A DNA stretch of 64,000 nucleotides from Indioceanicola profundi. Lineage in GTDB: Bacteria; Pseudomonadota; Alphaproteobacteria; Azospirillales; Azospirillaceae. The position numbers were made by a program, and so were the translations under genes. The notes under the pieces were generated by a model. That model made no database searches, was not told the DNA's origin, and saw nothing but the letters and a program-made list of their open reading frames with translations. Positions 5,449 to 23,515 of the stretch are shown piece by piece. Each line of letters begins with the position of its first letter. The stretch's first letter is position 1. Location: NCBI RefSeq assembly GCF_003568845.1, contig NZ_CP030127.1:434001-498000 (forward strand), in the 5' to 3' direction.

Positions 5449-5724
5449 ATGAACAAGAATGAACTGATTGCTGCTGTCGCAGATACCACCGACCTGTCCA
5501 AGTCCGATGCCGCCAAGGCTGTCGATGCCTTGTTCGACGGCATCACGGAAGCCCTGAAGCAGGGTGACGATGTGCGCCTGCTGGGGTTCGGCAACTTCTC
5601 GGTCGCCGAACGCGCCGCGCGCCAAGGCAAGAACCCGCGCACCGGCGAAACCATCGAGATCGCTGCCTCGAAGCAGCCGAAGTTCACAGCTGGCAAAGGC
5701 CTGAAGGACGCTGTTAACGGCTGA
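5449..5724 (+). CDS. hup: HU-family DNA-binding protein
   Basis: 91 residues, the standard HU length, beginning [20 protein letters not shown]. The central [18 protein letters not shown] and [10 protein letters not shown] stretches are the HU beta-arm signature with the DNA-intercalating proline region, and the C-terminal part [16 protein letters not shown] closes the dimer. HU bends and compacts DNA as a homodimer or heterodimer. The start ATG 5449 gives the conserved N-terminus; the open frame upstream is not coding. A strong hairpin follows directly, so it is likely a single-gene transcript. Confidence 0.95.
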
Positions 5725-6115
5725 GCCTTGGGAAAGGGGATAGGATCGCCTGTCCCCTTCTTGGAAGGCGCGCCGACGGCGCCCAATCGCAACAGAGCGC
5801 AGTTATGTTTTCGGGCAAACAATTCTCTTCCCGTAGCCGCGAGAGGATGGATGCTTCCCATCCAAGAAATTCAGCATACTGATCCGAGTGCCTAGTCGTT
5901 GTGTCCCCGTACAATAGGCACCATGCTTCCCACCGATACTGCCGGGCGAACACGGGGTCTGGTTCGGAATTAGCCCTCGCAAGCAGGGCGGTTGCTTTCG
6001 ACTGCAAGATCATACGGGATTGCGCCAATTGATACTTTTACATTCCCCATTGACGCCTAACCGGCACGGAGCGATCAATAGGTAGATTTACGGATGGTCG
6101 TGCGTTGGAGCGGGC
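5725..6115. other. Intergenic region upstream of the LuxR-type gene
   Basis: 391 bases with lower GC than the flanks. It contains the HU terminator (5734-5759) and the presumed control region of the LuxR-type gene. A 104-codon open frame on the minus strand (6028-5714) crosses it but has no recognisable content and runs through the terminator. I see no clear lux-box palindrome. Confidence 0.5.
5734..5759 (+). terminator. Terminator hairpin of the HU gene
   Basis: Arms AAGGGGATAGG and CCTGTCCCCTT form an 11-bp stem (one G-T pair) with a 4-base ATCG loop, starting 10 bases after the stop, followed by CTTGG. Confidence 0.7.
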
Positions 6116-6874
6116 ATGGAGCTTGGGGAACAGCTTGATTGCATTCTTACCTGCGAAACCAAGGAGCAACTCTTCGACCAGCTGAACCAGATCGCCGTCT
6201 TTCATGGATTCAGCAGCGTGAGTTACGTTGCGGCCCGGCCGCAGATGCTGCTCGATGGCGGGCTGATCGACTTTGTGACCAGCGCACCGACGCAGTTCAT
6301 CCAGAATTATGCGGACGAGCAATTCCTCACGGTTGACCCTGTCGTCTATAGGGCGGCATCAACAAGCCTACCGTTTCGCTGGAGCGACTGTCCCGAATTC
6401 GATGCGTTCTGGACGCCCCGCAGTGGCCCAGCAGGTGATGCCGTCAGGGTGATGGAAGCCGCTTGGGACCATGGCTTTTCAGAAGGTTTCGTCGTACCTA
6501 CCCACACCGTCGTTGCGGGTCAGACTATAAGCGGGTTCGCCACCTTCTTCTGGCCCGACAAGCATGCAGGGCCTGCTTTGACCTCCAAGGATACCCTGTT
6601 ACTGCGGATTGTGGCGAACACAGCGCATGAGAAGTATATCCGGCTCTGTGGTGTTGATGGCGGCCGTACTGATAAGGTCGACCTATCAGACCGGGAGCGT
6701 GATTGTCTGTGTTGGGCTGCCCGTGGGAAGAGTTCGGCGGAGACGGGAGAGATCCTGAAGCTCAGTACCAGGACCGTTGAGCATCACATCGCATCCGCAA
6801 CACGGAAGCTTAAAGCAGTCAACAAGTTACAGGCCGTTGTCATTGCTCTTCAGAAGGGCAAAATCTTGCCCTGA
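6116..6874 (+). CDS. LuxR-family transcriptional regulator with autoinducer-binding domain (solo)
   Basis: 252 residues. The N-terminal half looks like an acyl-homoserine-lactone-binding domain: FIQNYADEQFLTVDPVV keeps the Tyr, Asp and Pro of the pocket, FRWSD keeps a pocket Trp, and EGFVVPTH keeps the usual Gly. The Trp normally four residues before the pocket Tyr is Phe here. The C-terminal LSDRERDCLCWAARGKSS and STRTVEHHIASATRKL stretches are the LuxR helix-turn-helix. No luxI-type synthase is present in the window, so it is a solo receptor that may sense foreign or non-AHL signals. The ATG at 6116 has little ribosome-site support (GAGCGGGC). Confidence 0.85.
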   Translation: MELGEQLDCILTCETKEQLFDQLNQIAVFHGFSSVSYVAARPQMLLDGGLIDFVTSAPTQFIQNYADEQFLTVDPVVYRAASTSLPFRWSDCPEFDAFWTPRSGPAGDAVRVMEAAWDHGFSEGFVVPTHTVVAGQTISGFATFFWPDKHAGPALTSKDTLLLRIVANTAHEKYIRLCGVDGGRTDKVDLSDRERDCLCWAARGKSSAETGEILKLSTRTVEHHIASATRKLKAVNKLQAVVIALQKGKILP

Positions 6875-7202
6875 TGATTGAGCCACATATCGTGGCCTAA
6901 CCTTTGGAATATGGAGTCCTAAATCAGATATGATCTGGGGGCGAAGGTATTGGGTCTGCAGATAAGGATCAACATTTACTGGCCAATAAGATCGAATATA
7001 TATGTAGTCAGTACACACCAGGGCGCTCGGCTGATGGATCGGGTAGAAAATTAGGCCGGACCTAATGTCCGTTTCACCCGTGGGACCGGTGGGACAAGCC
7101 CGCCACGAATATGTTTGTTGAAGCTCCTTCCGCGCGCGCAAGCTCTGGGATTGATGAGACGTTAATACGGCTTCCCAGGAGCAGGGGTGCCGATCTGGAC
7201 TA
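6875..7202. other. Intergenic region between the LuxR-type gene and the cytochrome c gene
   Basis: 328 bases between convergent genes. I see no supported gene, no strong terminator and no repeat in it. Confidence 0.5.
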
Positions 7203-7673
7203 TTAGGGCGCAGCCTTGGCAGTCCGTTCCGAAATAAGCCGTTGGCGGGTCTTGATGTCCTGCGGCCAAGTGCTCTTGATAAAGGCCAGGACGGCCCGGA
7301 TCTCCTCGTCATTGAGCACGCCCGCGAAACCCGGCATGTCACTCTCGTAATCGCCTGCCACCGCTGCAGCCGGTCCGCGCTTGACGATGCGGAAGAGAAC
7401 CTCATCGGGGTGATGCCAAGTGTGCCCGGTTTGATCGTGCGGCGGCGCTGGCAGACGTCCGTCTGGTTTCCGGGAGCGCCAGTCCGGCTGGCCCTCGAGT
7501 TGTTCACCGTGACAAGCGGCACAGTGATCCGCGTAAATGGCGGCACCCCTGGCTATCACAGCTGCGTCTTCTGATAGGAGCTTGGCTGGGCCCATCCAGG
7601 TCCAGGCGGCTGCTCCGGCGCCAACGGCGGCCACGATCAATAGCGCCGCAATGGTCCGACTGTTCAATGTCAT
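7203..7673 (-). CDS. Membrane-anchored or exported c-type cytochrome
   Basis: 156 residues. It starts with a hydrophobic segment (ALLIVAAVGAGAAAWTWMG) that is either an uncleaved anchor or signal peptide. The single haem site is CAACH in IYADHCAACHGEQLEG, and the axial methionine is probably in SDMPGFAGVLNDEE, followed by the helix VLAFIKSTWP. This is the layout of a class I monohaem cytochrome c. No oxidase or dehydrogenase is adjacent, so the electron partner is unknown. It is divergent from the TonB receptor gene. Confidence 0.85.
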   Translation of the reverse strand: MTLNSRTIAALLIVAAVGAGAAAWTWMGPAKLLSEDAAVIARGAAIYADHCAACHGEQLEGQPDWRSRKPDGRLPAPPHDQTGHTWHHPDEVLFRIVKRGPAAAVAGDYESDMPGFAGVLNDEEIRAVLAFIKSTWPQDIKTRQRLISERTAKAAP

Positions 7674-8014
7674 GGCTCCGTCTCCAAATCATCCGGGGCT
7701 CAGGGTGACGTTACGGGCCCGCTTCAAGTCCGGACACGGCTGCCAGCTTGCACCATCGGACGGGGCACAGGTTTGACCAGCAGATGCTATCCCCGGATCG
7801 AGGGATCCATAAAGGGATGCCTCTCCCTGCAATTTTATTGCTATACGGAATTCTGCTGTTGCGAAAATACGATAGATGAAGCTCGCAGCCGCAATAAAGC
7901 GTCCAATTCGTATTGACTTGTATAGACAGGTCTGATCCGATGCCTTCCGCACGCCGTGCCGGGACGTACCGGCTTTTCCCGGCTCTCGGGACGACAATGA
8001 GGAAGGACAGGGGC
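7674..8014. other. Divergent control region cytochrome c / TonB receptor
   Basis: 341 bases without a supported gene. It contains the HutC-like palindrome at 7916-7931 and must hold promoters for both flanking genes. An open frame runs in phase with the receptor from 7913 but lacks a signal peptide at its start, so I treat it as leader DNA. Confidence 0.55.
7916..7931. promoter_or_regulatory. HutC-like palindrome upstream of the TonB receptor
   Basis: ACTTGTATAGACAGGT is an imperfect palindrome (12 of 16 positions symmetric). Its core TTGTATAGACAG matches the perfect palindrome TTGTATATACAA in front of hutF at 10 of 12 positions. It lies 83 bases before the receptor ATG. I infer a HutC-family operator, placing the receptor operon in the Hut regulon. 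Confidence 0.45.
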
Positions 8015-10705
8015 ATGAAGAGGCTTTCGGGGAAACTGTTGGTGGCGACTGCACTGAGCGCCGGGGTCCTGGCGGGGATGCCTGCGGTAGCCCAGCAGCA
8101 GCCAGGCACGGGACTTGAGGAAATCGTAGTCACCGGCAGCCGCATCAAGCGCGAGGACATCACCGGCGTCGGGCCTGCCACGGTGCTCACCAACGAGTTC
8201 ATCCAGAGCACGGGCATCGCCAGCGTAGAGACCCTGCTCCAGCGCCTGCCGTCCAGCGCCGGTTTCGCCGGAAACCAGACCAGCGCCTACTGGACCAGCA
8301 ATGGCTGGGGCACTGCCCAGGTCAACCTGCGTGGTCTAGGCGCCAATCGCACCCTCGTTCTCCTTAACGGGCGGCGCATTGTGCCGGGCGGCACCGGGGC
8401 CAACAGTTCTCCCGACCTGAACACGATCCCGGTGTCGATCATCGAGCGCATTGACGTTCTCAAGGACGGTGCATCCGCCATCTACGGCGCCGACGCTGTC
8501 GCCGGTGTCGTCAACGTGATCACGCGCGACGACTTCGAGGGAGTGGAGGTCTCGGCCAAGTACGGCATCACCGAGGAGGGCGATGGCGAGGAAAAGAGCG
8601 CCGATCTCACCTGGGGATTGTCCGGCGAGAAGGGGAACTTTGTCGCGTCGCTGACCTACTACAAGTCCGAGCCTGTGAACATGGCCGACCGCGAACCCTG
8701 CGGCCTCGGCGAGGTGGATGGCGAGCTCGTCTGCGTGGGAAGTTCCGCCACCATTGGCGGGCGTGCCCTGCTGCCGACCGGGCAGCGGATCAACTTCAAC
8801 CAGACCCCCGGGGGCGACGGCGACTTTTTCGAGCCCTACAACGGCGCCATCCACAATTTCAACTCCAACCCCTACTTGAATGCAGTTAACCCGATCGAGC
8901 GCATCAGCGCCTCTGCATTCGGCAACATCAACGTCACTGATGACGTGAAACTGTTCACCGAACTGATGTTCACGAACCGGCAGTCGACGCAGCTGGCCAC
9001 GCCGGGCTCCTTGCGCAACCTGAGCATCCCGGCGACCAATCCCACCAACCCGACCGGCCAGGACATCATCCTCGAGCAGCGCCGCCTGATGGAACCGGGG
9101 CCGCGCGACTTCTTCCAGGATGTCGATACGTGGCGGACGGTCGTCGGCCTGACGGGGGATCTGGCGAACGGCTGGACCTGGGAGACCGCCTTCAATTGGG
9201 GTCGCACCACCGGCATCGACGGGTCCAACAACATCGCCAACCTGGATCGCGTCGGGGATACCCTCAACACGGATGTCTGCAGCTTTGCGGCCGGGGCCGC
9301 GATCCCGTGCGGCGATTACCTCGGTGCTGGAGACCTGTCCCCGGAAGTCCTCGACTACATCCTGTTCACCATGCGGGACTCCGGCGGCAATGAGCAGATC
9401 AGCGGAACCTTCGACATCACCGGTTCGCTGTTCGCACTCCCCGCCGGAGATGTCGGCTTTGCGGCAGGGGTGGTCTATCGCGAGGAGAAAGGCTGGCGTG
9501 ATCCGGATCCGCTGACGGTTCTCGGTGTCGCCAACACCAACCAGCAGGATCCGATCTCCGGCGAGTTCACGGCCAAGGAAGCCTATGTGGAATTGGCCGT
9601 TCCGGTCCTCAGCAATCTGCCCTTTGTCCAGCGCCTGGACGTCAACGCCGCTGCCCGCTACTCCGATTACGATCTGTTCGGCAGCGACGAGAACTACAAG
9701 CTCGGCCTCGACTGGCAGGTTATCGACGGGGTCCGCCTGCGTGCCACTTACGCAACCGCCTTCCGCATCCCGAACGTGCCGGAGCTCTTCGGCGGTGTCG
9801 CCGAGGGCAATCTGACGACCACCGACCCGTGCAGCGGCTACGCCAGTCTGCCCGCGGGCTCCGTGGTGGCGCAGAACTGCGCTGCCAGCGGTGTTCCGGC
9901 AGGATACCAGCAGCTGGGCAACACCATCCTGACGACGGTGGGCGGCAACGAGAACCTTGATCCTGAGAGTGCCGAGTCCTTCACGGTCGGGGCCGTGTAC
10001 CAGCCGCCTTTCGTCGAAGGGCTGACGCTCACGGTCGACTACTTCGACATCACGATCAAGGACGCCATCCGGGCGATCCCGGGCTCGACCAAGCTGGCGG
10101 TCTGCTACGAATCCGCGGGCCTGTCCCACCCGTTCTGCGGGCCTGAGCACTTCACTCGAAATGCCCTCACCGGTGACATCAACTTCCTTTCCGCCCAGCC
10201 GGTGAACACCGGCCGTGAGGAGATGAAGGGTGTCGACTTCGGGCTGATCTACGAGTTCAGCATCGGCGAATTCGCCGCGGCGATCGACTGGAACACGACC
10301 TACCTCGACACCTACACCATCACGCCGTTCCAGGGCGCTGAGGAGATCGTCTTTGACGGCTTCATCGGTGGCGGCAATGGAGGCTTCCCGCATTGGCGCT
10401 CCAACGTCAACGCGACCTTGGCGGGCGACCGCTGGAGCGGGACCTACTCTGTCCAGTGGATCGGCAAGGCGACGGACTTCAACGCGTCCGAAGGCGACAT
10501 CGGCCACCGCACGCCGAACGTCTTCTACCACAACGTCCAGGTCGGCTACGACTTCAACGACCAGGCCCGCATCGCGGTTGGCGTGGACAACCTGTTCGAC
10601 GAGGATGCGCCCTTCATCCAAAGCTGGACCGATGCGAACACGGACACCATGACCTATGACCTGCTGGGCCGCCGCGGCTATGTCCGCCTGACCTACACGT
10701 TCTAA
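8015..10705 (+). CDS. TonB-dependent outer-membrane receptor
   Basis: 896 residues. ATG 8015 follows AGGACAGGGGC and gives a signal peptide ending at AVAQQ near residue 27. A TonB-box-like EEIVVTGSRI follows, then the plug domain (VETLLQRLP, VNLRGLGANRTLVLLNG, IERIDVLKDGASAIYGADA, GVVNVITR) and a 22-strand barrel ending in aromatic YVRLTYTF. It takes up a scarce substrate at the outer membrane using TonB energy. The substrate is not fixed by sequence. Downstream PepSY and NqrF-like reductase genes point to a metal complex that is reduced after import; the adjacent hut genes and shared operator-like site suggest a link with histidine or a histidine-metal complex (inference). A hairpin separates it from the next gene. 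Confidence 0.9.
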   Translation: MKRLSGKLLVATALSAGVLAGMPAVAQQQPGTGLEEIVVTGSRIKREDITGVGPATVLTNEFIQSTGIASVETLLQRLPSSAGFAGNQTSAYWTSNGWGTAQVNLRGLGANRTLVLLNGRRIVPGGTGANSSPDLNTIPVSIIERIDVLKDGASAIYGADAVAGVVNVITRDDFEGVEVSAKYGITEEGDGEEKSADLTWGLSGEKGNFVASLTYYKSEPVNMADREPCGLGEVDGELVCVGSSATIGGRALLPTGQRINFNQTPGGDGDFFEPYNGAIHNFNSNPYLNAVNPIERISASAFGNINVTDDVKLFTELMFTNRQSTQLATPGSLRNLSIPATNPTNPTGQDIILEQRRLMEPGPRDFFQDVDTWRTVVGLTGDLANGWTWETAFNWGRTTGIDGSNNIANLDRVGDTLNTDVCSFAAGAAIPCGDYLGAGDLSPEVLDYILFTMRDSGGNEQISGTFDITGSLFALPAGDVGFAAGVVYREEKGWRDPDPLTVLGVANTNQQDPISGEFTAKEAYVELAVPVLSNLPFVQRLDVNAAARYSDYDLFGSDENYKLGLDWQVIDGVRLRATYATAFRIPNVPELFGGVAEGNLTTTDPCSGYASLPAGSVVAQNCAASGVPAGYQQLGNTILTTVGGNENLDPESAESFTVGAVYQPPFVEGLTLTVDYFDITIKDAIRAIPGSTKLAVCYESAGLSHPFCGPEHFTRNALTGDINFLSAQPVNTGREEMKGVDFGLIYEFSIGEFAAAIDWNTTYLDTYTITPFQGAEEIVFDGFIGGGNGGFPHWRSNVNATLAGDRWSGTYSVQWIGKATDFNASEGDIGHRTPNVFYHNVQVGYDFNDQARIAVGVDNLFDEDAPFIQSWTDANTDTMTYDLLGRRGYVRLTYTF

Positions 10706-10723
10706 GTCCAGGGGTCTGAACGG

Positions 10724-10749
10724 GGATCGCCGCCTCCGGGCGGCGGTCC
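10724..10749 (+). terminator. Hairpin between receptor and PepSY genes
   Basis: Arms GGATCGCCGCC and GGCGGCGGTCC pair over 11 bp (one G-T) around TCCG, followed by TTATG. It could lower expression of the downstream reductase genes relative to the receptor. Confidence 0.55.
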
Positions 10750-10804
10750 TTATGTTGGCGGGGCCGGTTCGGCCCGCGCCGAGCCTGCATCATTGGAGCT
10801 TGCC

Positions 10805-11515
10805 ATGCGCGCCGCCGCCTTGGCCCGTAAGTCGCACAAGTGGTTGACGATGCTGATCGCTATCCAGACCGTTCTCTGGGCAGTCAGCGGCCTCTACATG
10901 GTCTCGGTGCCGATCGAGATCATTCACGGCGACCATTTCGTACACGGCCATCACGAACCGGTTCCGCCGCTCGACCATGTCCGCTACGAGGTGGACGACA
11001 TCCGCCAGAGGTATGGCGAGATCCATGGCCTCCGGGTGAAGTCGCTGGCCGACCGCCCCGCCTACGTGGTGGAAACCTCAAGGGGAACGGTGCTGGTCGA
11101 TGCTGTCGAGGGCACCGAACTGTCTCCGCTGGGAGAGGAGACCATTCGGGACTTGGCGCGGCGGAACTATGTCGGAGAGGGCAGGATCACATCTGTTACG
11201 CTTCTTCAGACACTGCCGCTCGAGGTGCAGGCCCGGAAACCTCCCTTGTGGCAGGTCCAGTTCGAGGGCTGGAACAACCACACCCTCTACTTCTCGCCGA
11301 CGACAGGGGACATGGTGGCCCGCCGCCATCAACTGTGGCGCCTCTTCGACTTCGTGTGGATGTTCCACATCATGGACTACGAGTCCCGGACCGACGTGAA
11401 CAACACGCTGCTCCGGGTCGCCACGATTGTCGGCGTGCTCGCGACCGGCAGCGGTCTCTGGCTCCTGTTCTACAGCTTCCGCCGCGCGCGCCGCGCGCGT
11501 GACGCCCGCGTTTGA
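10805..11515 (+). CDS. PepSY domain membrane protein
   Basis: 236 residues from ATG 10805 (an earlier in-frame ATG at 10793 is less likely). An N-terminal membrane segment (LTMLIAIQTVLWAVSGLYMV) is followed by a periplasmic PepSY-type domain and a second membrane segment near residues 205-225. Just before the second segment lies RLFDFVWMFHIMDYESRTD; nearly the same motif occurs in the next protein, so the two are paralogues over this part. The histidine in it could bind haem or a metal (inference). It lies 13 bases before the next gene, consistent with a two-subunit trans-membrane reductase serving the upstream TonB receptor. Confidence 0.8.
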   Translation: MRAAALARKSHKWLTMLIAIQTVLWAVSGLYMVSVPIEIIHGDHFVHGHHEPVPPLDHVRYEVDDIRQRYGEIHGLRVKSLADRPAYVVETSRGTVLVDAVEGTELSPLGEETIRDLARRNYVGEGRITSVTLLQTLPLEVQARKPPLWQVQFEGWNNHTLYFSPTTGDMVARRHQLWRLFDFVWMFHIMDYESRTDVNNTLLRVATIVGVLATGSGLWLLFYSFRRARRARDARV

Positions 11516-11528
11516 CGGAGGACCGAGC

Positions 11529-13376
11529 ATGCAAACCCTCCGCATCCTTCACAAGTGGGTCGGGCTCCTGCTCGGCCTGCAGTTCGTCCTCTGGGCGCTG
11601 AGCGGCGCCATGATGGCGCTGATCGACCATCACGCCGTCTTGGGCGACCACACGCGCCGTTCCGCTCCACCATTGGCACTCTCGGCCTCCGTACCGGCCC
11701 TGTCGATTGCGGATATCCATGCCCTTGTCGGGCCGGACGCAACCGGTCCCCTGCGTCTGCGCCCCTTGCTCGACCGGTTCGTCTATGAGGTATCCACCGC
11801 CGACGGCGTTCGGCTTCTCGCGGCGGAAGACGGTAGTGACGTGGTTGTCGACCGAGCCCTGGCACACCGCATTGCCGAGCAGGACTATTCGGGCGCGGGA
11901 CAGGTCGTGTCCGTCGACCGGATGGAAGAGACAACGCTTGAGGTACGGAACCACGAAGCTCCCATCTGGCGCGTCGCCTTCGATGACGAAGAGAACACGA
12001 CGCTCTACGTCGCCGCCGAAACGGGCCGGATCCTGGAGCGCCGGAACGACAGCTGGCGGCTGTTCGATTTCTTCTGGATGCTCCACATCATGGACTACAC
12101 GGAGCGCCAGAGCTTCAATCACCCTCTCATCATCCTGGCCACCGTTTCGGCCGTGTGGCTCTCGTTCAGCGGCCTGTTCCTAATCTTCGACAGCTTCTCC
12201 TGGCGGGACTTCAACCCTGGGCTAGCCATGCGGCGGCTGCGGGGCCGCGGCGTGCCGGTTGCCGTCTGGGCGGGCGGTCAGCCGTCCCGGACGGTGGATC
12301 TGCCGGAAGGTGCAACCTACTTCGACGCGCTGAGCGCCGAGGGCGTTCGACTTCCGTCCAACTGTGGCGGCGGGGGCAGCTGCGGCCTGTGCCGGGTCGA
12401 ACTCGGCCCCGACGCGCCGATCACCGATGCGGACCGCTACCACATCGGGCCGCAGGATCTTCAGCGAGGCGCTCGCCTGGCCTGTCGCCATCACGTTGTT
12501 GCTGGGGCAGAGGTCGGCGTGCCCAACGAGGCGCTGGACACCGAGGGTCATACCGCGACAGTGCTGTCCACGCGCTATCTCAGTCCCTTCATCAAGGAAG
12601 TCCACCTGCGCCTCGATGACGGGACGGCGCTAAATTACCGGGCCGGGCAGTTCGTGCAGCTGGAAATTCCGGCATACGAAACATCGCCCGCGCGCTTCGA
12701 GCCGCCGGTGAACTGGCAGACCGATTGGGAACGCCTGCGCCTTCCCGAGCGACTTGTGCACGAGGGTGGGATCCACCGGTCCTACTCACTCGCCACACAC
12801 CCTTCGGAGGCGCCAAGCGAGTTGGTGCTGAACGTGCGGTTCATGCCCTCATCTACCCCGGACAAGGTACCGTGCGGCGCTGGGTCCAGCTACGTCTTCG
12901 GCCTACGACCTGGCGAGAAGGTCCGCGTCTTCGGTCCGTTCGGCGCGTTTGCAGCCAGCGACTCCGGCCGGGAAATCATTGCCATCGGCGGCGGTGCCGG
13001 AATGGCGCCGCTCAGAGCCATCATCCGCGACGAGCTCCTCCGCAAGGGAACCTTCCGTCGGATTTCCTACTGGTACGGCGCCCGTTCGGCGCGGGATATC
13101 CTGTACCGGGATGAGTTCGACAGGCTGGCGGAAGCGTCGTCGAACTTCACCTGGACCGTCGCCCTGTCCGAGCCGGAAGCAGGGGATAGCTGGCGCGGAC
13201 CTGTTGGCCTGATCCACGAAGTCGTGCGGAACCAGTACCTCGCCAAGCATCCGAATCTGGCCGAATGCGAGTTCCTGGTCTGTGGCCCGCCTGCCATGCT
13301 GAAAGCCGTGCTGGCCATGTTGGAGGACCTTGGCGTGCCTCGGGACCGCATCGCCTTCGACGATTTCGGTATTTGA
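11529..13376 (+). CDS. PepSY membrane domain fused to NqrF-like 2Fe-2S/FAD/NADH reductase
   Basis: 615 residues from ATG 11529. Residues 1-~225 repeat the layout of the preceding PepSY protein, including RLFDFFWMLHIMDYTERQS. Then comes a plant-type ferredoxin domain with ligands in SNCGGGGSCGLCRV and a fourth cysteine in ARLACRHHV. The C-terminal ~300 residues follow NqrF closely: RSYSLATHP (FAD), IAIGGGAGMAPLRAII, ISYWYGARSARDILY, ECEFLVCGPPAM (NADH) and the terminal AFDDFGI. NqrF moves electrons from NADH through FAD and 2Fe-2S into a membrane partner; here the partner appears to be the PepSY part of the same chain. No other nqr genes are present. Likely role: NADH-driven reduction of a periplasmic metal complex (inference). 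Confidence 0.85.
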   Translation: MQTLRILHKWVGLLLGLQFVLWALSGAMMALIDHHAVLGDHTRRSAPPLALSASVPALSIADIHALVGPDATGPLRLRPLLDRFVYEVSTADGVRLLAAEDGSDVVVDRALAHRIAEQDYSGAGQVVSVDRMEETTLEVRNHEAPIWRVAFDDEENTTLYVAAETGRILERRNDSWRLFDFFWMLHIMDYTERQSFNHPLIILATVSAVWLSFSGLFLIFDSFSWRDFNPGLAMRRLRGRGVPVAVWAGGQPSRTVDLPEGATYFDALSAEGVRLPSNCGGGGSCGLCRVELGPDAPITDADRYHIGPQDLQRGARLACRHHVVAGAEVGVPNEALDTEGHTATVLSTRYLSPFIKEVHLRLDDGTALNYRAGQFVQLEIPAYETSPARFEPPVNWQTDWERLRLPERLVHEGGIHRSYSLATHPSEAPSELVLNVRFMPSSTPDKVPCGAGSSYVFGLRPGEKVRVFGPFGAFAASDSGREIIAIGGGAGMAPLRAIIRDELLRKGTFRRISYWYGARSARDILYRDEFDRLAEASSNFTWTVALSEPEAGDSWRGPVGLIHEVVRNQYLAKHPNLAECEFLVCGPPAMLKAVLAMLEDLGVPRDRIAFDDFGI

Positions 13377-13382
13377 CCGCCA

Positions 13383-13411
13383 GCGGCATTCGTTCGATGA
13401 TTGAATGCCGC
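13383..13411 (+). terminator. Stem-loop after the PepSY-NqrF gene
   Basis: Arms GCGGCATTC and GAATGCCGC pair perfectly (9 bp) around an 11-base loop, 6 bases after the stop, separating the receptor/reductase operon from hutC. Confidence 0.5.
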
Positions 13412-13485
13412 CTGGAGCGTGCTGTCGAATGCGAGCATCCTGTGTGCATGCGGCTACTAGGGCGGGCGCATAGGGTGCCGTTCAC

Positions 13486-14211
13486 GTGGAGGCCACCAGC
13501 TTGTCCTTATCCATGATCCCGCTCTATCAGCAGGTTCGGCAGCACGTGCTGGAACAGATCGCATCCGGTGCCCTGAAAGTCGGGGACCGGGTGCCGTCTG
13601 AGATGGAATTGGTGCAGCAGCTGAGCACCTCCCGCATGACGGTCAACCGTGCCCTACGGGAACTGACCAATGAAGGCGTGCTCGTTCGAGTTCAGGGAGT
13701 CGGCACCTTCGTCGGCGACCGCAAGGCGCACGGCCATCCTTTGAAGATCCGCAGCATCGCGGACGAGGTCAAAGAGCGTGGAGGAACCTATAGCGCCCGC
13801 GTGCTCGCGGTGGAAAAGACGCATGCCGGTGACACGCTCGCCAGGACGTTCGGGATCGCGCCGGGTGCTGCGCTCTACCGGTCCTCGATTGTCCACCAGG
13901 AAAACGACATTCCGCTTCAGCTTGAGGAGCGGTTCGTGAATCCGGCACTGGCACCCGATTATGTCCGGGCCGACTTCAGCCGCATGACGCCGTACGAGTA
14001 CCTGATTAAAGTGGCGCCGCTGCAGGAGGTCGAGCACGTCGTCCGTGCCGTGATGCCGAGCATCCAGACGAGAGAGCACCTCCACATGGCCGCGGGGGAA
14101 CCCTGCCTGCTCATCCATCGCCGCACCTGGACCGACGGGCAACTCGCAACGGTCGCCGACTTGTACCATCCGGCGTCACGCTACGAACTTTCCGGCCGCT
14201 TCCGCCCCTAA
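13486..14211 (+). CDS. hutC: Histidine utilization repressor HutC (GntR family)
   Basis: 241 residues from GTG 13486; an ATG at 13513 is the alternative start. The N-terminal winged helix reads PLYQQVRQHVLEQIASGALK, DRVPSEMELVQQLSTSRMTV and VRVQGVGTFVGDRK, typical of the HutC/FarR branch of GntR regulators. The C-terminal UTRA ligand-binding domain (from about residue 90) includes LQLEERFVNPALAPDY. HutC represses histidine catabolic genes and is released by urocanate. It sits directly upstream of hutF-hutU-hutH, and a perfect palindrome of HutC type precedes hutF. Confidence 0.92.
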   Translation: MEATSLSLSMIPLYQQVRQHVLEQIASGALKVGDRVPSEMELVQQLSTSRMTVNRALRELTNEGVLVRVQGVGTFVGDRKAHGHPLKIRSIADEVKERGGTYSARVLAVEKTHAGDTLARTFGIAPGAALYRSSIVHQENDIPLQLEERFVNPALAPDYVRADFSRMTPYEYLIKVAPLQEVEHVVRAVMPSIQTREHLHMAAGEPCLLIHRRTWTDGQLATVADLYHPASRYELSGRFRP

Positions 14212-14263
14212 GAAGCCCCCTTCCGGCGTGAGGCGCAAGTCGCTCTTCCCGGCTCGAGCCATG

Positions 14264-14275
14264 TTGTATATACAA
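14264..14275. promoter_or_regulatory. HutC operator upstream of hutF
   Basis: TTGTATATACAA is a perfect 12-base palindrome, 41 bases before the hutF ATG and 52 after the hutC stop. It matches the known HutC-type site pattern (TTGTAT...ACAA). A second palindrome, CATGTACATG (14277-14286), follows at once. Confidence 0.65.
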
Positions 14276-14316
14276 GCATGTACATGTTGCGGCCTGCTGC
14301 CGATGAAAGGAATTCC

Positions 14317-15687
14317 ATGCCGTCCTACTTCGCCGAGGCGGTGCGCTTGCCGAATGGCTGGGCCTGTGATGTCCGCCTGCATGTGGACGCTGACGGCATC
14401 ATTGCCGCGGTGGAACCTGGGGCTTCAGCAGCAGGCGCTGAACGCCTGTCCGGTCCGGTAATCCCGGGTATGCCCAACCTGCACTCGCACGCATTCCAGC
14501 GTGCGATGGCCGGGCTGGCGGAGCGTGGAAGCCACACGGGCGACACCTTCTGGACTTGGCGGCAGACCATGTACCGCTTCCTGGAGCGGTTGACGCCCGA
14601 GGACAACCGAGCGATTGCCTGCCAGCTTTATGTGGAGATGCTCAAGGGCGGCTACACCACCGTTGGCGAGTTCCACTACCTGCACAACGATCCCCAGGGA
14701 CATGCCTACATGGACCCGGCGTCCATGGCGTCGGGCATCCTTTCCGCAGCCCAGGAGGCGGGCATTGGTCTGACCTTGCTGCCCGTCCTCTACATGACGG
14801 GCAGCTTTGACGGCCGTCCGCTCGTCGGCGGGCAGAGGCGCTTCGCCCATACGCCCGACAGCGTACTGCGCCTCACCGAGAAGCTGCTGGGCGAAGCGCC
14901 TCCCGAAGTTCGGGTCGGCTTGGCACCTCATAGCCTGCGGGCGGTGCCGCTGGACGCGATGCGCGAGGCCCTGGCCGGGCTGGACGCGCTGGACCGTCAC
15001 GCCCCCATACATATCCACGTGGCTGAGCAGCCGGGAGAGGTCGCTGATTGTCTTGCTGCTTTGGGCAAGCGGTCGGTGGAACTCCTTCTGGACAGCATGG
15101 ACGTCACACCGCGCTGGACGTTGATCCACGCCACCCACATGACCGAGGCGGAAACCCGCCGTGCTGCAGCCACGGGCGCCACGGTCGGTCTCTGTCCCTC
15201 CACCGAGGCGAACCTGGGGGATGGGCTTTTTCAGTTCCTGACCTTCCTGGAAGCCGGTGGGGCGTTCGGCATAGGCACGGATAGCCACGTCAGCCTCGAC
15301 GCCCGGGAGGAACTCCGCTGGCTCGACTACGGCCAGCGCCTCCGGTCGGGCAAGCGCGCCATGCCGGTCATGGGGGACGCACACGTCGGCGCCCGACTCT
15401 GGCTGGAAGCAGTTGCTGGCGGGGCGCGATCGCTGGGTCACGCGACCGGACATATCACCGTTGGGCACCGGGCCGACCTCGTCGTGCTTGACCCCGACCA
15501 CCCTTCGCTTGCTGGCCGCGAGGGCGACCAGCTGCTGGACGCGCTGGTCTTCGTGAACGCAGGCGCCAGCCCGATCCGGCATGTCATGGCAAGAGGGCGG
15601 ATGGTCATCGCGGATGGTCGGCACCCTGACGAGGAGGCAATCGCGGCGCGCTATCGGGCCGCGCTGTCACGCCTGCTTGCCGAATGA
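14317..15687 (+). CDS. hutF: Formimidoylglutamate deiminase HutF
   Basis: 456 residues from ATG 14317, preceded by GAAAGGAATTCC. This amidohydrolase converts N-formimidoyl-L-glutamate to N-formyl-L-glutamate and ammonia in the five-step histidine pathway. Metal-site motifs are visible in order: HSHAFQRAMAG after the first strand, IHIHVAEQPGEV, LIHATHMT, and GTDSHVSLDARE with the catalytic Asp. HutF would normally work with HutG (N-formylglutamate deformylase), which is not in the window. The operator palindrome lies just upstream; hutU follows after 41 bases. Confidence 0.93.
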   Translation: MPSYFAEAVRLPNGWACDVRLHVDADGIIAAVEPGASAAGAERLSGPVIPGMPNLHSHAFQRAMAGLAERGSHTGDTFWTWRQTMYRFLERLTPEDNRAIACQLYVEMLKGGYTTVGEFHYLHNDPQGHAYMDPASMASGILSAAQEAGIGLTLLPVLYMTGSFDGRPLVGGQRRFAHTPDSVLRLTEKLLGEAPPEVRVGLAPHSLRAVPLDAMREALAGLDALDRHAPIHIHVAEQPGEVADCLAALGKRSVELLLDSMDVTPRWTLIHATHMTEAETRRAAATGATVGLCPSTEANLGDGLFQFLTFLEAGGAFGIGTDSHVSLDAREELRWLDYGQRLRSGKRAMPVMGDAHVGARLWLEAVAGGARSLGHATGHITVGHRADLVVLDPDHPSLAGREGDQLLDALVFVNAGASPIRHVMARGRMVIADGRHPDEEAIAARYRAALSRLLAE

Positions 15688-15728
15688 GGCCCGCCGTCCC
15701 AACAATCTCAGAGTAAGACGAGGAATCC

Positions 15729-17414
<1,686 letters not shown>

Positions 17415-17429
17415 ACCGCGGGACACATC

Positions 17430-18953
17430 ATGCAGACCATTCGCGTACATCCAGGTCGTCTGACGCTTTCCGACATCAAGCTGGTTCTGGCGGGCCCCGT
17501 CCGCCTCAGCATCGACCCGGTAGACATGGAACGTGCCGCCGCATCGTCCCGCACCGTGATGGAGGTGATGGCTGCCGGAGAGGTCGCTTACGGGATCAAT
17601 ACGGGGTTCGGCCTTCTAGCCAAGACCCGGATCGAGCCGGACCAACTCGCGCTGCTCCAGCGTAACCTTGTCCTCAGTCACGCGACCGGAACCGGTCCGC
17701 TCCTACCCGACGAGGTGGTGCGGCTGGTCATTGTCTTGAAGGTCAACAGCCTGCTGCGTGGCTATTCGGGGGTGCGGCCAGAGGTGATCGCGGCCCTGGC
17801 GCAGCTTCTGGAGCGCGAGGTCTATCCCTGCATTCCGGCCAAGGGGTCCGTAGGCGCATCCGGTGACTTGGCGCCGCTGGCGCACATGGTCGCCCCCATG
17901 ATCGGCTGGGGTGAGGTGCGGATAAAGGGAGAAGTCCTGCCCGCCGCCAAGGCGATGGAGGCCGCGGGCCTGAGCTTGCTGGAACTGGGGCCCAAGGAGG
18001 GACTGGCGTTGCTCAACGGCACGCAAGTCTCGACCGCCCTGGCTCTGGCCGGACTGTTCGCCGCTGAGCGCGTTTTCGATGCGGCGCTAGTTGCGGGTGC
18101 CATGTCGGTGGATGCTGCGCGGGGCAGCGACACGCCCTTCGACCCGCGCATCCATGAGCTACGTGGCCAGCGTGGCCAGATCGATGTAGCCGCCGCCTAT
18201 CGTGAGCTCCTGGCGGGTAGCGCCATTCGCGAGAGCCACCACGATTGCCCGCGTGTCCAGGACCCCTACTGTCTGCGGTGCCAGCCTCAGGTCATGGGAG
18301 CATGTCTGGACCAGCTTCGGTTCGCCGCCGGGACACTTGGAATCGAGGCCAACGCTGTCACCGACAACCCTCTGGTCTTCCCCGGTGACGGCGCCATCCT
18401 GTCCGGCGGCAATTTCCACGCCGAACCCGTGGCCATGGCCGCCGACCAGATTGCCCTGGCCCTGGCGGAGATCGGCAACCTGTCCGAACGGCGCAGCGCC
18501 ATGCTGGTGGACCCCAACCACAACGGTGGGCTACCGGCCTTCCTGGTCAAGGACGGCGGAGTGAATTCCGGATTCATGATCGCCCAGGTAACGGCGGCTG
18601 CATTGGCGTCGGAGAACAAGGGCTTGGCACACCCGGCCAGCGTGGATAGCATCCCCACCTCGGCCAACCAGGAGGATCATGTCTCCATGGCCACTTGGGC
18701 GGCACGGCGCACGTTGGACATGGCTGACAACGCTGCGGGCATCGTCGCGGTCGAAACCTTGGCGGCCGCGCAGGGGATTGATTTTCACCGGCCTCTGCGC
18801 TCCTCGAGCAGGTTGGAAGCGATTCATGCCAGCCTTCGATCTCTCGTGCCCTTCTGGGACCGGGACCGCTACTTCGCCCCGGATATCGCAGCGACTAAGA
18901 TCCTGATGGCTGAGGGCGGGCTAGCGTCTGGCGTCAACTGGCTGGAGAAGTAA
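17430..18953 (+). CDS. hutH: Histidine ammonia-lyase HutH
   Basis: 507 residues. It removes ammonia from L-histidine to give urocanate, the first step of the pathway. The MIO prosthetic group is formed from Ala-Ser-Gly in [13 protein letters not shown] (residues 143-145). Other family marks: [14 protein letters not shown] near the start, [39 protein letters not shown] and SSRLEAIHA. The start overlaps nothing and is 15 bases after hutU. No imidazolonepropionase gene (hutI) follows, so the third step must be encoded elsewhere. Confidence 0.97.
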
Positions 18954-19468: not shown

Positions 19469-19614
19469 AGTTCCCATGGGGACCCGATTATCGGATGGCG
19501 GAATCCGGGCTCCTTGGTTGGCATTATATGGCCGTGCCGATCCGTGAACCTCATCACCCCGGACTTGAACCTCAGGCGCGGCCCCTTTATCTCTGGGCAG
19601 CGTTTCTCGCACGA

Positions 19615-20022
19615 ATGAGGCCATTGGCCGTGGGACTTGGTCGGGTACTGCTCCTCTTGATCGTCTGCGTGGCGTTTGTGACGGCTCCGGTTCGCGCCGC
19701 GATGCCTGAGCACGCCCATATGGCGATGCAGGCAGCGGTTCTGGCGCACGGTGGCGACCACGGGCATAGTGCTCACCACGTTCACGGCTCCGCAGCCACG
19801 GATACCGCCGATCCCTGCAGCGACGATGCGGGTGCGCATCCGACTGAGACGTCGCACGCTGCCCAGGGAGGCTGCTGCCCCGCTTGGTGCGCCGTCACCG
19901 CTCTTCCGGCGGTGTTCAGCAGCCTGAACGCTCCCGAGTCCCAGAGGACCCGCGAACCCGTGGAGAACATCACGGGGCCGACCGGGACCTTGGCTCCGCC
20001 GATCCGTCCGCCGCGCGCGTGA
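19615..20022 (+). CDS. Small secreted CzcI/DUF2946-like protein
   Basis: About 135 residues from ATG 19615. The N-terminus is a signal or anchor (GLGRVLLLLIVCVAFVTAPVRA); the mature part is rich in His and has a CCPAWC cysteine cluster, then a C-terminal tail ending PPIRPPRA. The protein at 30458-30763, heading the czc operon, shares this plan and ends PPYKPPRA. Small proteins with such tails commonly sit at the head of metal-efflux operons; the biochemical role is not known. Codon usage fits its neighbours. Start uncertain: an in-frame ATG at 19495 would add 40 residues before the signal peptide. Confidence 0.6.
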   Translation: MRPLAVGLGRVLLLLIVCVAFVTAPVRAAMPEHAHMAMQAAVLAHGGDHGHSAHHVHGSAATDTADPCSDDAGAHPTETSHAAQGGCCPAWCAVTALPAVFSSLNAPESQRTREPVENITGPTGTLAPPIRPPRA

Positions 20023-20114: not shown

Positions 20115-20675
20115 ATGACCACCCGCTTCGGTGCCCTTTCCGGCGCCCTGTTCGCTATTTCCACCCTCATCTCGATCCCTGCGATGGCTGACCCAAGCCA
20201 CACGCACGCAGGCGCCATTGGGCAGCCCGCCAAGCCAAGCCAAGCCACCCGCACGGTCGAGGTGGAGATCGGCGACATCTTCTACGAGCCCGGCTCCATC
20301 CAGGTGAAGCCCGGCGAAACCGTGCGCTTCGTCGTCAAGAACACCGGCGACCTCCTACACGCGTTCACCATCGGTACCGCCGCCATGCACGCCGCCCACC
20401 AGAAGGAGATGGCGATGATGGCCGAGCACGGAATGATCACGCCCACCGGCATGAACCACGACATGATGGACATGGATCATTCCAATATGCCGGGCATGGA
20501 CCACGGCGCGATGGGAGCCATGGAGCATGACGCTTCCAACAGCGTCCTTGTCGAGCCCGGCCAGTCGGCCGAACTGGCCTGGACCTTCCCCGAGGCGGCC
20601 ACGCTTGAGTACGCCTGCAACGTCCCGGGCCATTACGAGGCCGGGATGGTGGGCAAGATCGACTTCAGCCGCTGA
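20115..20675 (+). CDS. Exported cupredoxin with Met/His-rich insert
   Basis: 186 residues with a signal peptide ending ISIPAMA. The cupredoxin fold runs from TVEVEIGDIFYEPG. Type 1 copper ligands can be assigned: His in LLHAFTIG, then Cys, His and Met in CNVPGHYEAGM. Between the first His and the Cys sits an extra loop of about 60 residues, rich in Met, His and Asp (HDMMDMDHSNMPGMDHGAMG), which could hold several Cu(I) ions. It is a plastocyanin-like copper-resistance protein encoded 11 bases before copA, whose product has a similar insert. Confidence 0.85.
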   Translation: MTTRFGALSGALFAISTLISIPAMADPSHTHAGAIGQPAKPSQATRTVEVEIGDIFYEPGSIQVKPGETVRFVVKNTGDLLHAFTIGTAAMHAAHQKEMAMMAEHGMITPTGMNHDMMDMDHSNMPGMDHGAMGAMEHDASNSVLVEPGQSAELAWTFPEAATLEYACNVPGHYEAGMVGKIDFSR

Positions 20676-20686
20676 CGGAGGAGATT

Positions 20687-22753
20687 ATGCACGAACAGAA
20701 TGCCGGGCTGTCCCGCCGGGATGCCCTGAAGCTGGCAGGGGCTGCCGGAGTTGCCGGGTACCTGACCATCTACCCCGGCCGCCGCAGCTTCGCCTCGTCC
20801 GACCAGGAGTACGAGCTCCTGGTGGAGAACACCCGGATCACCATCGACGGGGAGACCACGCCCGCCATTTCCATGGGCGGCTCGATCCCGGCGCCCATCA
20901 TGCGCTGGCGCGAGGGCCAGGAGATCACTGTCCATGTCACCAACCGCATGGACGAACCGACCTCTATCCACTGGCACGGGCTGCTCATCACCGGCTTCAT
21001 GGATGGCTCGCCCGGCTTCAACGGCTTCGATCCCATCCAGCCGGGCCAGACCTTCACCTACCGCTTCAATCTGCGCCAGGCCGGGACCTACTGGTACCAC
21101 AGCCACTCCGCATCCCAGGAGCAGGAGGGCATGTACGGCGCCATCGTGATCGAGCCCGCGGGCCGTGACCCGATCCGCGCCGACCGGGACTATGTGGTCC
21201 TGCTGTCGGACCACACCGCCGACAATCCGGAGACCGTGCTGCGCAAGCTGAAGGTCAGCGAGGGCTACTACAACAACGAGAAGCGCACCCTGCTGGACTT
21301 CTTCCGCGATGTCCGGGAGGACGGGTTCAAGGCCGCCTGGGCCGACCGCCGGGCCTGGGGGCAGATGCGCATGGACCCGACCGACCTGGCCGACGTGACC
21401 GGCTACAAGTTCCTCGTCAACGGCAAGGGACCAAGGGACAACTGGACGGCCCTGTACAAGCCGGGCGAGCGCGTCCGGCTGCGGATCATCAATGGCTCGG
21501 CCATGACGATCTTCGACCTCCGCATCCCCGGGCTGCCGATGACCGTGGTTGCCGCCGACGGCCAGAATGTGCTGCCGGTCAAGGTGGACGAGTTCCGCTT
21601 CGGGGTGGGCGAGACCTATGACGTCATCGTGCACCCCACCGAGGACAAGCCCTTCACCTTCTTCGCGGAGTCCATCGACCGCACCGGCTACGCCCGGGCG
21701 ACGCTGGCCACCCGTGAAGGCATGGAGGGGGAAATTCCCGAGATGCGGCCGCGCGCCATCCTGACCATGGAAGACATGGGCATGGATCATGGTGCAATGG
21801 GGCACGGCGGAATGGACCATGGTGCGGCCGGACACGGCGCCCCGACCGAAGCATCAGGGTCGGCAGGCATCACGACGGGCGTCGCTAAACCCGCGGCCAA
21901 CCACGCCGCCGTGGGCCACAGTTCCAGTGGAATGGACCATTCCGCGGTGGGGCATGGAGCCGCCAATATGGACCATAGTGCAATGGGACATGGCACAACA
22001 AGCCACTTCGCCATGCCTCATGAAACAATGGACCACTCCACGATGGGACATGGCTCCGCGGAGATGGACCATTCCTCAATGGATCATTCCGCCATGGGCC
22101 ACGGCGCGACCGGCCATGATCATTCTGCTATAGGCCATGGTGTCATGGACCACGGCGGCATGGACCATGGTGCGATGGATCACGGCTCCAACGGCATGGA
22201 TCACGCATCCATGGGGCACGGATCAGCCGGAACGGACCACGCAGCCATGGGCCACGGCATGCAGACCGGTACACGCGATGGAGAGGCCGTTGGCTGGGCC
22301 GACGCAGGCACCCCGCCGGGTGCGAAGGCCCTGTCCTATGCTGACCTGAAATCACTCACGAAGAACGAGGATCTAAGGGAGCCCACACAGGAGATCGAGG
22401 TTAGGCTGACGGGCATCATGGAGCGGTACATCTGGACTCTCAACGGTCAGAAGTTCGGCCATGGCGACCCGATCCGGGTGAGCTATGGCGACCGTGTCCG
22501 GATCAGGTTCGTGAACACCACCATGATGGCGCACCCGATGCACCTGCATGGCATGTTCATGGAGGTCGAGAACGGCCAGACCGACCGCAGGCCGAGAAAG
22601 CATGTCGTGCTGGTGCCGCCCGGCAAGACCACGTCGGTGGTGCTGACGGCGGACGAACCGGGTGAGTGGCCGTTCCACTGCCACCTGCTCTACCACATGG
22701 CCTCCGGCATGATGACGCGCTTCATCGTCGAGCCGCGCACGGCGAGCCTTTGA
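20687..22753 (+). CDS. copA: Multicopper oxidase CopA (copper resistance) with long Met/His-rich insert
   Basis: 688 residues. A Tat signal (LSRRDALKLAGAAGVAGYL) shows export in folded form. Copper sites: IHWHGLL, YWYHSHSASQ, HPMHLHGMF and HCHLLYHMASGMM (type 1/trinuclear ligands). It oxidises Cu(I) and stores or passivates periplasmic copper. About residues 365-530 are a low-complexity run of MDH/MGH units (GMDHGAMGHGG, SAMGHGTT and so on), longer than the few MxxHxxM repeats usual in CopA. The ribosome site CGGAGGAGATT precedes ATG 20687. copB follows after 15 bases. Confidence 0.95.
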   Translation: MHEQNAGLSRRDALKLAGAAGVAGYLTIYPGRRSFASSDQEYELLVENTRITIDGETTPAISMGGSIPAPIMRWREGQEITVHVTNRMDEPTSIHWHGLLITGFMDGSPGFNGFDPIQPGQTFTYRFNLRQAGTYWYHSHSASQEQEGMYGAIVIEPAGRDPIRADRDYVVLLSDHTADNPETVLRKLKVSEGYYNNEKRTLLDFFRDVREDGFKAAWADRRAWGQMRMDPTDLADVTGYKFLVNGKGPRDNWTALYKPGERVRLRIINGSAMTIFDLRIPGLPMTVVAADGQNVLPVKVDEFRFGVGETYDVIVHPTEDKPFTFFAESIDRTGYARATLATREGMEGEIPEMRPRAILTMEDMGMDHGAMGHGGMDHGAAGHGAPTEASGSAGITTGVAKPAANHAAVGHSSSGMDHSAVGHGAANMDHSAMGHGTTSHFAMPHETMDHSTMGHGSAEMDHSSMDHSAMGHGATGHDHSAIGHGVMDHGGMDHGAMDHGSNGMDHASMGHGSAGTDHAAMGHGMQTGTRDGEAVGWADAGTPPGAKALSYADLKSLTKNEDLREPTQEIEVRLTGIMERYIWTLNGQKFGHGDPIRVSYGDRVRIRFVNTTMMAHPMHLHGMFMEVENGQTDRRPRKHVVLVPPGKTTSVVLTADEPGEWPFHCHLLYHMASGMMTRFIVEPRTASL

Positions 22754-22768
22754 GGCGGGAGAAGAACA

Positions 22769-23515
22769 ATGCGCATGTTGAAGGGTAGCCTCGCGGCCGC
22801 CGCTGCGGTGGCCACCGCCATGACGGCTTCGGCAGGCGTGGCCCAGACGGTCGATGTCAACCAAGCCCAGGATTTCCATGAGGAGCCATTGCTGTGGACC
22901 GTGCTGGTCGACCGGCTCGAGCACCGCTGGCAGGACGGCGAGAACTCCGTGAACTGGGAGGCCGAAGCCTTCGTCGGCGGCGACTACCAGAAGATCTGGC
23001 TGACGACGGAAGGCGAGAAGCCGGTCGATGGTGCCGTGGAGGAGGCGGACATCCAGCTTCTCTACAGCCGCATGATCGGCGACTTCTGGGACGTCCAGGT
23101 AGGCATCCGGCACGACATCCGCCCGCAGCCGCAGACCACCTACGCGGTTCTCGGCCTCCAGGGGCTGGCGCCCTACTTCTTCGAGGTGGATGCCCAGGCC
23201 TTCCTCAGCGAGGATGGTGACCTCACGGCTTCAGCCGAGGCGGAGTTCGACCTGCTGATCACGCAGAAGCTGATCCTGCAGCCGGTCGCGGAGGTGAATT
23301 TCGCCCTCCAGGACGTCGAGGAGTTGGGCATCGGCGCCGGGATCAGCGACATCGGGCTGGGGCTGCGGCTCCGGTACGAGATCGTACGGGAGTTCGCGCC
23401 CTATGTCGGCGTCCAATGGGAGCGGCAGCTGGGCCAGACCGCGGACTTCGCTCGGGCGAAAGGCGAGGATCCGGACGTCTTCTCGGTGCTGGCTGGAATC
23501 CGTTTCTGGTTCTGA
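22769..23515 (+). CDS. copB: Copper resistance protein CopB (outer membrane)
   Basis: 248 residues with a signal peptide (AAAAAVATAMTASAGVAQ). The family body is visible: VLVDRLEHRWQDGENSVNWEAE, LWLTTEGE-like KIWLTTEGEKPVDG, LLYSRMIGDFWDVQVGIRHD, YFFEVDAQAFLSEDGD and the terminal GIRFWF. CopB is a small outer-membrane beta-barrel that works with CopA in periplasmic copper tolerance. The Met-rich N-terminal repeats seen in many CopB proteins are absent here; that sequence is concentrated in CopA and the cupredoxin instead. A strong hairpin ends the operon. Confidence 0.93.
   Translation: MRMLKGSLAAAAAVATAMTASAGVAQTVDVNQAQDFHEEPLLWTVLVDRLEHRWQDGENSVNWEAEAFVGGDYQKIWLTTEGEKPVDGAVEEADIQLLYSRMIGDFWDVQVGIRHDIRPQPQTTYAVLGLQGLAPYFFEVDAQAFLSEDGDLTASAEAEFDLLITQKLILQPVAEVNFALQDVEELGIGAGISDIGLGLRLRYEIVREFAPYVGVQWERQLGQTADFARAKGEDPDVFSVLAGIRFWF

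Follow-up and report, generated by a model that had tools for sequence, protein, structure and literature searches.

The subject of this study is an operon for a TonB-dependent receptor and a probable two-gene PepSY reductase in Indioceanicola profundi. It lies in a 64,000-nucleotide stretch of contig NZ_CP030127.1 (hereafter the window; G000:C2:434001-498000, in a genome of four contigs), where the gene order is operator, TonB receptor, PepSY1, PepSY2/NqrF, hutC, operator, hutF, hutU, hutH, leader-type open reading frame (ORF), cupredoxin, copA and copB. Our best explanation is that the operon at 8015-13376 encodes a HutC-repressed system for uptake and reduction, most likely of Cu(II)-histidine, and we put the probability of this reading at roughly 0.6. 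It is based on comparative sequence analysis, in which the conserved operator, the adjoining hutC, the domains and invariant histidines of the proteins, the leader ORFs and the neighbouring copper genes were all considered. HutC control of the operon is very probable; an NADH-driven periplasmic reductase is likely, as is some involvement of copper in the function of the operon, and Cu(II)-histidine as the ligand stands at about even odds.

Operators and hutC at receptor loci

The core of the receptor site, TTGTATAGACAG (7918-7929), lies within an imperfect 18-mer palindrome that is symmetrical at 7 of 9 base pairs by a by-eye count, and the hutF site, 41 bases upstream of the hutF ATG, is perfectly palindromic. 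The original prediction had suggested, from a likeness between these two sites, that the receptor operon may belong to the HutC regulon, and its measurements hold: the spacer to the receptor ATG at 8015 is 83 bases (7932-8014), the two cores are identical at 10 of 12 positions, and the reductase ORF, ending at 13376, is separated from the hutC start at 13486 by 109 bases. Measured Pseudomonas HutC operators centre on TGTA-N2-TACA, and the protected regions described overlap promoters (PMC12977541). The hutF site matches this consensus perfectly; the receptor site, TGTATAGACA, has one mismatch to it and shares its core with six Massilia hutU promoters. Furthermore, a TTGACT hexamer at 7913-7918, a possible -35 box, overlaps the left edge of the receptor operator, and TTGAC abuts the operator in four loci (the window, L054, L173 and L174; L and G numbers denote loci and genomes), a placement that looks repressor-like.

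Within the window, TTGTATATACAA with at most two mismatches gave three matches against 0.18 expected, the third at an unrelated place, 35475. We therefore rejected pairwise similarity of the palindromes as a weak argument and used conservation tests instead. Genome-wide, TTGTATANACA occurs at four distinct places (six rows), solely at both operators of the two copies of the locus (see below), and its reversed control pattern gave three matches.

Relatives of the reductase were gathered from named genomes, with 80 loci kept of 317, and the receptor set comprises 40 receptors, including the doubtful L180 (C-terminal half only) and L181 (~40% identity, possibly of another family). Massilia and Microbulbifer loci carry the same receptor-PepSY-PepSY/NqrF operon, and no hut gene was detected in the DNA retrieved for them. 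We looked for the best match to CTTGTATAGACAAG in ~1.1 kb at 27 loci: it was exact in L033, L034, L050 and L065, had one mismatch in L027, L031 and L036 and two in L028, L035, L039, L041 and L079, and had three or more in the remaining 15. Cut into pieces of 1160 bases, the 80 loci gave 1206 blocks, of which 13 contained a match with no more than two mismatches; 12 of these are the receptor sites just named, and the other is in L096.

Whole-genome scans of 18 related genomes found TTGTATANACAA at 29 places, against two matches for the reversed control. Three genomes had none, and all 15 genomes with the motif have one at hut (14 by tblastn, G083 by coordinates only). Seven of the 29 places lie before the receptor of an operon unlinked to hut (a leader ORF intervenes in Microbulbifer) and seven lie elsewhere. 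The ORFs near six of the latter seven were scanned for further HutC targets and gave no hut link: they encode ribonucleotide reductase, alcohol dehydrogenase, a GntR/FCD regulator with chondroitinase B, a CheA-like kinase or seryl-tRNA synthetase, or belong to no family. Six Massilia hutU promoters have TTGTATAGACAA, a variant also found at receptors. Compared with TTGTATAGACAA at hutU of the same genome, the Massilia receptor site is an identical 12-mer in G084, G085 and G098 and has an identical 10-base core in G086 and G087; nothing comparable was seen in G088.

We then compared receptors with other ORFs. The core, with at most one mismatch, was present within 300 bases of 18/40 receptors but 10/505 other ORFs, and within 800 bases of 25/40 receptors but 18/484 other ORFs; these rows are not independent, since a single genus can contribute several of them, and the control set includes hut genes and ORFs on the same intergenic stretch. 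No site was found in 800 bases at 15 of the 40 receptors, one of which, L180, has hutC adjoining. The upstream regions of orthologous receptors, a comparison that the original prediction had proposed, support it, though not everywhere: the palindrome recurs even where the receptor is unlinked to hut, but 14 of the 40 loci have neither the site nor hutC. HutC has been described as able to bind sites unlike its consensus as well (PMC12772324, PMC12977541), and HutC control is therefore compatible with the absence of a site. The hut operons of L193, L194 and L196 carry TGTATATACA before hutF or hutC, and none was seen in the hut operon of L195.

hutC itself is a frequent neighbour. A receptor search in 398 genomes across the phylum gave 11 with a strong match, that of I. 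profundi included, and hutC adjoins the receptor or the PepSY pair in seven of the ten others (L172, L173, L174, L176, L178, L179 and L180); it was not found beside the receptor in L175, L177 and L181. These seven hutC products, together with those of Brevundimonas L189 and Caulobacter L054, exceed the TIGR02018 cut-off; the tenth protein in that test, L190, is a HutC encoded in a hut operon. The receptor-PepSY-PepSY-hutC module occurs twice in Brevundimonas, both times with a site, and in the second module (L192) this site lies 82 bases before the receptor match. Across 12 genomes chosen for holding the receptor, 12 of 22 hutC genes above the cut-off adjoin it, and no other receptor-type gene was seen near hutC by eye among the plug-domain matches listed, a part of 560 in total. 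Within the order, a reductase match at E <= 1e-40 occurs in only 4 of 82 genomes, our own included, and of the three others only G073 matches beyond the NqrF part, so linkage there is uninformative. Overall, operator conservation in distant bacteria and hutC adjacency support placing the receptor operon in the HutC regulon.

The probable split reductase and the receptor

PepSY1 has hydrophobic segments at residues 14-35 and 202-221. In alignments of 47 sequences each, from which odd-length or fused rows had been dropped, His11 and His188 of PepSY1 and His8 and His186 of PepSY2 are invariant; His11 and His8 lie near the first hydrophobic segment, and His188 and His186 shortly before the last. 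Against PF03929 (PepSY_TM; cut-off 28.8), PepSY2 passes at 35.3 and PepSY1 stays below at 19.7. In the FoxB/CrpH layout, as described in PMC13038864, two histidines at each membrane face hold two hemes. The four invariant histidines fit this layout, which would give the PepSY pair a similar topology and heme content.

The C-terminal module of PepSY2 scores 347 bits against TIGR01941 (NqrF; cut-off 295). The structural model of PepSY2/NqrF is good (predicted local distance difference test score, pLDDT, 86), and the folds it matches best are those of NqrF chains. Fused as it is to PepSY2, the module is hardly a subunit of a Na+-NQR; it is probably the NADH-oxidizing end of a periplasmic reductase. 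Both PepSY halves and NqrF are joined in a single ORF in L046 (L046:9214-11679, 821 residues) and L047 (L047:6859-9336, 825 residues), which argues that the products of the two genes form one complex. Other members have no NqrF domain (L054, L059, L172-L174), and the module is therefore optional. A PepSY gene accompanies the receptor in 38 of 40 loci, the exceptions being L179 and L181. We also observed PepSY pairs of this type without a detected receptor orthologue, in L055 and L060 (Sphingomonas metagenome-assembled genomes) and in L029 and L030 (Microbulbifer).

After L177, L181 and receptors shorter than 850 residues had been dropped, eight Cys and His280 were invariant in the 37 receptor orthologues left; in a 35-row alignment His280 was only nearly invariant. 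The receptor model is of moderate quality (pLDDT 74), with a poor plug. It comes nearest to enterobactin-type receptors, in a fold ranking that, at 11-16% identity, reflects the general receptor fold. At L180, near 5620-7519, only receptor residues 488-896 lie beside PepSY-PepSY-hutC, by truncation, rearrangement or assembly error.

Copper and the weighing of substrates

A systematic ORF scan found Cys-rich leader ORFs before 15 of the 40 receptors (L191, Microbulbifer L025-L028, L031, L032, L079, Massilia L038, L040, L042, L048, L045, L175, L176). All 15 have a strongly hydrophobic, signal-like N-terminal stretch and 6 to 9 Cys, with CxxC or CC in 13. In the Microbulbifer operons the leader is rich in Cys and His, has RPP at its end and is placed after the site region and ahead of the receptor. 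The definition is loose: at least three Cys plus the C-terminal pattern retrieves 81 ORFs in ~2.09 million bases on both strands, many of them plainly something else, and a match at L054 was dropped from the leader count for want of a hydrophobic N-terminus. Those ending in RPP (L025, L027, L040, L176 and others) look like several sequence types. A leader and a HutC-type site occur together in L027, L028, L031, L079, L175 and L176; nine loci have a leader without any HutC sign, and L049, L051, L103, L177 and L181 have neither.

CruR and CutF are described as nascent copper sensors in which a Cys motif is combined with a proline motif at the C-terminus (PMC9426467, PMC9973294), and the leaders resemble them in layout. 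A copper-sensing role is suggested by how many cysteines the leaders have, by their hydrophobic N-terminus and RPP ending, and by where they lie. In Microbulbifer, another leader-type ORF precedes copA, directly behind NqrF in L027 and L031 but at a further distance of ~3 kb in L030 and L032; L030 also has a leader-type ORF just before PepSY1. In the window, the copper operon lies behind hutH, and the leader-type ORF that heads it has its hydrophobic stretch at residues 42-70.

CopA or CopB homologues are present at 21/38 receptor loci compared with 4/45 control loci with PepSY only (Fisher p = 7e-6, with related species counted apart); by taxonomic group the count is 10/18. Among the four positive controls, L055 and L060 carry a PepSY pair of a similar kind at which no receptor was detected; the control rate may therefore be too high. 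Separately, L195 (G449:C1:1371000-1384000) is a receptor-less hutC-hutH locus with copA/copB homologues within ~5 kb, hinting at a wider clustering of hut and copper genes.

The leaders and neighbours favour copper and HutC favours histidine; we propose Cu(II)-histidine because it would join both. The uptake of a histidine-metal complex had been suggested in the original prediction, and the leaders and the CopA/CopB neighbourhood lend independent, though indirect, support to copper as the metal, with Cu(II)-histidine our inferred substrate. Histidine degradation would yield urocanate, which would release HutC from the 7915-7932 and hutF operators, so that the receptor and the reductase would be made together with the hut enzymes. 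The receptor would bring a metal chelate, most likely histidine-held Cu(II), into the periplasm. Together, PepSY1 and PepSY2 would make up a single membrane reductase like FoxB/CrpH, with four helices, four histidines and two hemes, which would pass electrons from NADH through FAD, the 2Fe-2S centre and the hemes to periplasmic Cu(II), with the NqrF-like domain as the donor side. Histidine is a good ligand of Cu(II) and a poorer one of Cu(I). Formation of Cu(I) would loosen the complex, so that the histidine could be catabolized and the copper passed to cuproproteins or to the adjacent CopAB. In other species the Cys-rich leader ORF may add, or substitute, probable copper control. That distant Proteobacteria share a dedicated Cu(II)-histidine pathway of this kind, with a HutC-induced receptor, an NADH-driven split two-heme reductase and, in some species, both histidine and copper status read at the operon, is a more tentative proposal, to which we give somewhat less than an even chance.

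Several observations weigh against the reading of the operon as a HutC-repressed, reductive copper-histidine uptake system. The loci with neither site nor hutC include L191, the closest relative found in the order (receptor 76% identical), as well as Massilia L038 and L103 and Microbulbifer L025, L026 and L032. No leader ORF was found in the window's own operon. The leaders tested (L027, L191, L176, L038 and the window) match neither DUF2946 nor any informative Pfam family, and the paper on CutF notes that such leader proteins are not all copper-specific. CopA matches in L033, L040, L045 and L065 are partial, and CopA and CopB are encoded by resistance genes, which might lie nearby as parts of general metal islands. 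The receptor is not of the CrtA type: eight Cys are invariant here and none is described as conserved in CrtA. Among the sequence and fold matches listed for the receptor there is no CrtA, and the solved structures among them include no copper receptor; the presence of CrtA in the collections searched was unchecked. For PepSY1 no solved relative was found by sequence, FoxB not being recovered, and FoxB is absent from the 50 fold matches listed for PepSY2/NqrF. Members without NqrF (L054, L059, L172-L174) need another electron donor.

Two alternatives are unlikely to a similar degree. In the first, the receptor is a HutC-regulated importer of histidine or small histidine peptides, metal-free, with the PepSY proteins serving iron handling or some other redox function and with copper genes nearby by accident. 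In the account of Leyn et al., the TonB receptor under HutC is one of the proteins with a potential role in histidine uptake (PMC5343134), and outside Massilia and Microbulbifer no single association is stronger than that with an adjoining hutC. Against this, a PepSY gene goes with the receptor at nearly all loci, and leaders and copA/copB are enriched there. Free histidine, moreover, should cross porins and need no TonB receptor. In the second, the operon acquires copper from various chelates, while HutC does no more than link this to the state of nitrogen or carbon supply, and histidine forms no part of the substrate. Such a role is known from Bordetella CrtA, described as importing chelated copper and followed by a PepSY_TM protein under the CruR leader (PMC12914433, PMC13038864), and the nine operons with a leader but no HutC sign would suit it. 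It leaves the recurrence of a histidine regulator in distant bacteria unexplained, however, and the conserved residues of the receptor differ from those of CrtA.

Ferric-siderophore uptake with reductive release of iron, as by FoxA/FoxB or HiuAB, appears considerably less likely still. PepSY_TM reductases of known substrate are described as acting on ferrisiderophores (PMC13001220, PMC13038864), and the receptor model comes nearest to enterobactin-type receptors, but that ranking reflects the general fold, HutC is the conserved associated regulator (no search for Fur sites was made), and copper genes and leaders lie nearby. Finally, a chance palindrome in an operon outside HutC control is highly improbable: the two-mismatch copy elsewhere in the window and the 14 loci without site and hutC would allow it, but orthologues unlinked to hut have conserved the site, which is far more frequent there than in the controls.

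Layout of the locus and comparison with known systems

Features of the locus, in window coordinates
Feature	Position	Strand	Basis or remark
cytochrome c gene	7203-7673	-	upstream of operator and receptor operon
predicted HutC operator of receptor operon, GACTTGTATAGACAGGTC	7915..7932	+	motif scan; conserved at orthologues
TonB-dependent receptor, 896 residues	8015..10705	+	profiles PF07715 (plug), PF00593 (barrel)
PepSY1, membrane half-subunit	10805..11515	+	weak PF03929 match
PepSY2 half-subunit fused to NqrF-like 2Fe-2S/FAD/NADH module	11529..13376	+	PF03929, TIGR01941, fold matches
hutC, GntR/UTRA repressor of histidine utilization	13486..14211	+	TIGR02018, 295 bits (cut-off 220)
predicted HutC operator of hutF, TTGTATATACAA	14264..14275	+	motif scan
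hutF, formimidoylglutamate deiminase	14317..15687	+	profile match
hutU, urocanase	15729..17414	+	profile match
hutH, histidine ammonia-lyase	17430..18953	+	profile match
Cys/His-rich leader-type ORF heading copper operon, RPP-type C-terminus	19495..20022	+	no Pfam family; start codon uncertain
plastocyanin/azurin-like copper protein (cupredoxin)	20115..20675	+	PF00127
CopA multicopper oxidase	20687..22753	+	TIGR01480, 711 bits (cut-off 479)
CopB copper resistance protein	22769..23515	+	PF05275

A 12 kb hut/receptor segment of the window (6998-18941) is duplicated on the 296 kb contig at G000:C4:186892-198838 with 95.5% identity. Identity between the two copies is 100% in the intergenic stretches on both sides of hutC, 99.9% in hutC, 98.8% in hutF, ~98% in the operator with 20 bases on either side, and 94% in the receptor gene and its whole upstream region. 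Stretches of the cop region also recur on C4, at 82-84%. The window hutU (15727-17401) is 99.8% identical to hutU of the C1 hut locus and ~93.5% to the C4 copy. This near-identity to C1, while the neighbouring hutF is only 67% identical to its C1 counterpart, points to an apparent gene conversion between replicons.

The original prediction knew of no described system of this kind, which proves half right. A TonB receptor in the HutC regulons of Caulobacterales and Sphingomonadales was predicted in 2016 by Leyn et al. (PMC5343134); it shares predicted HutC control with the receptor here and very probably belongs to the same family. The passages drawn on here name the transporter alone, as potentially serving histidine uptake, and the main text does not use the term PepSY. 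No paper joining HutC, a PepSY/NqrF reductase and copper uptake in one system was found among the open-access titles and abstracts listed. What appears to be new, then, is the occurrence of members outside Caulobacterales and Sphingomonadales, the fused NADH reductase and the link to copper.

In the Bordetella cruR-crtA-crpH operon, too, a PepSY_TM protein comes after the TonB receptor, and a leader containing Cys, with a proline motif at its C-terminus, often heads the genes (PMC9426467, PMC12914433, PMC13038864). This operon differs in that CrpH is one polypeptide, as against two PepSY genes here, and in the receptor cysteines; the passages of these papers drawn on here describe no HutC control, and the leaders tested in our loci fall outside DUF2946 in Pfam. 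PepSY-like proteins with an NAD-binding domain are themselves known, 1077 genes for them having been surveyed (PMC8238504); those proteins stand in flavinylation gene clusters, with no mention of hut or HutC in the part of that paper used here. With the ferrisiderophore reductases FoxB and HiuB, the PepSY pair shares two units, each a PepSY domain between transmembrane segments, and conserved histidines holding two hemes (heme being predicted in our case). Here, unlike in FoxB and HiuB, the units are two genes, the second with a built-in NADH dehydrogenase module.

If our reading is true, amino-acid catabolism would be tied to metal uptake through one repressor, and a ligand would be suggested for an orphan family of TonB receptors. 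Furthermore, the electron donor of FoxB, a relative of CrpH, has been called unknown (PMC13038864), whereas the reductases described here would be PepSY reductases whose electron donor is visible.

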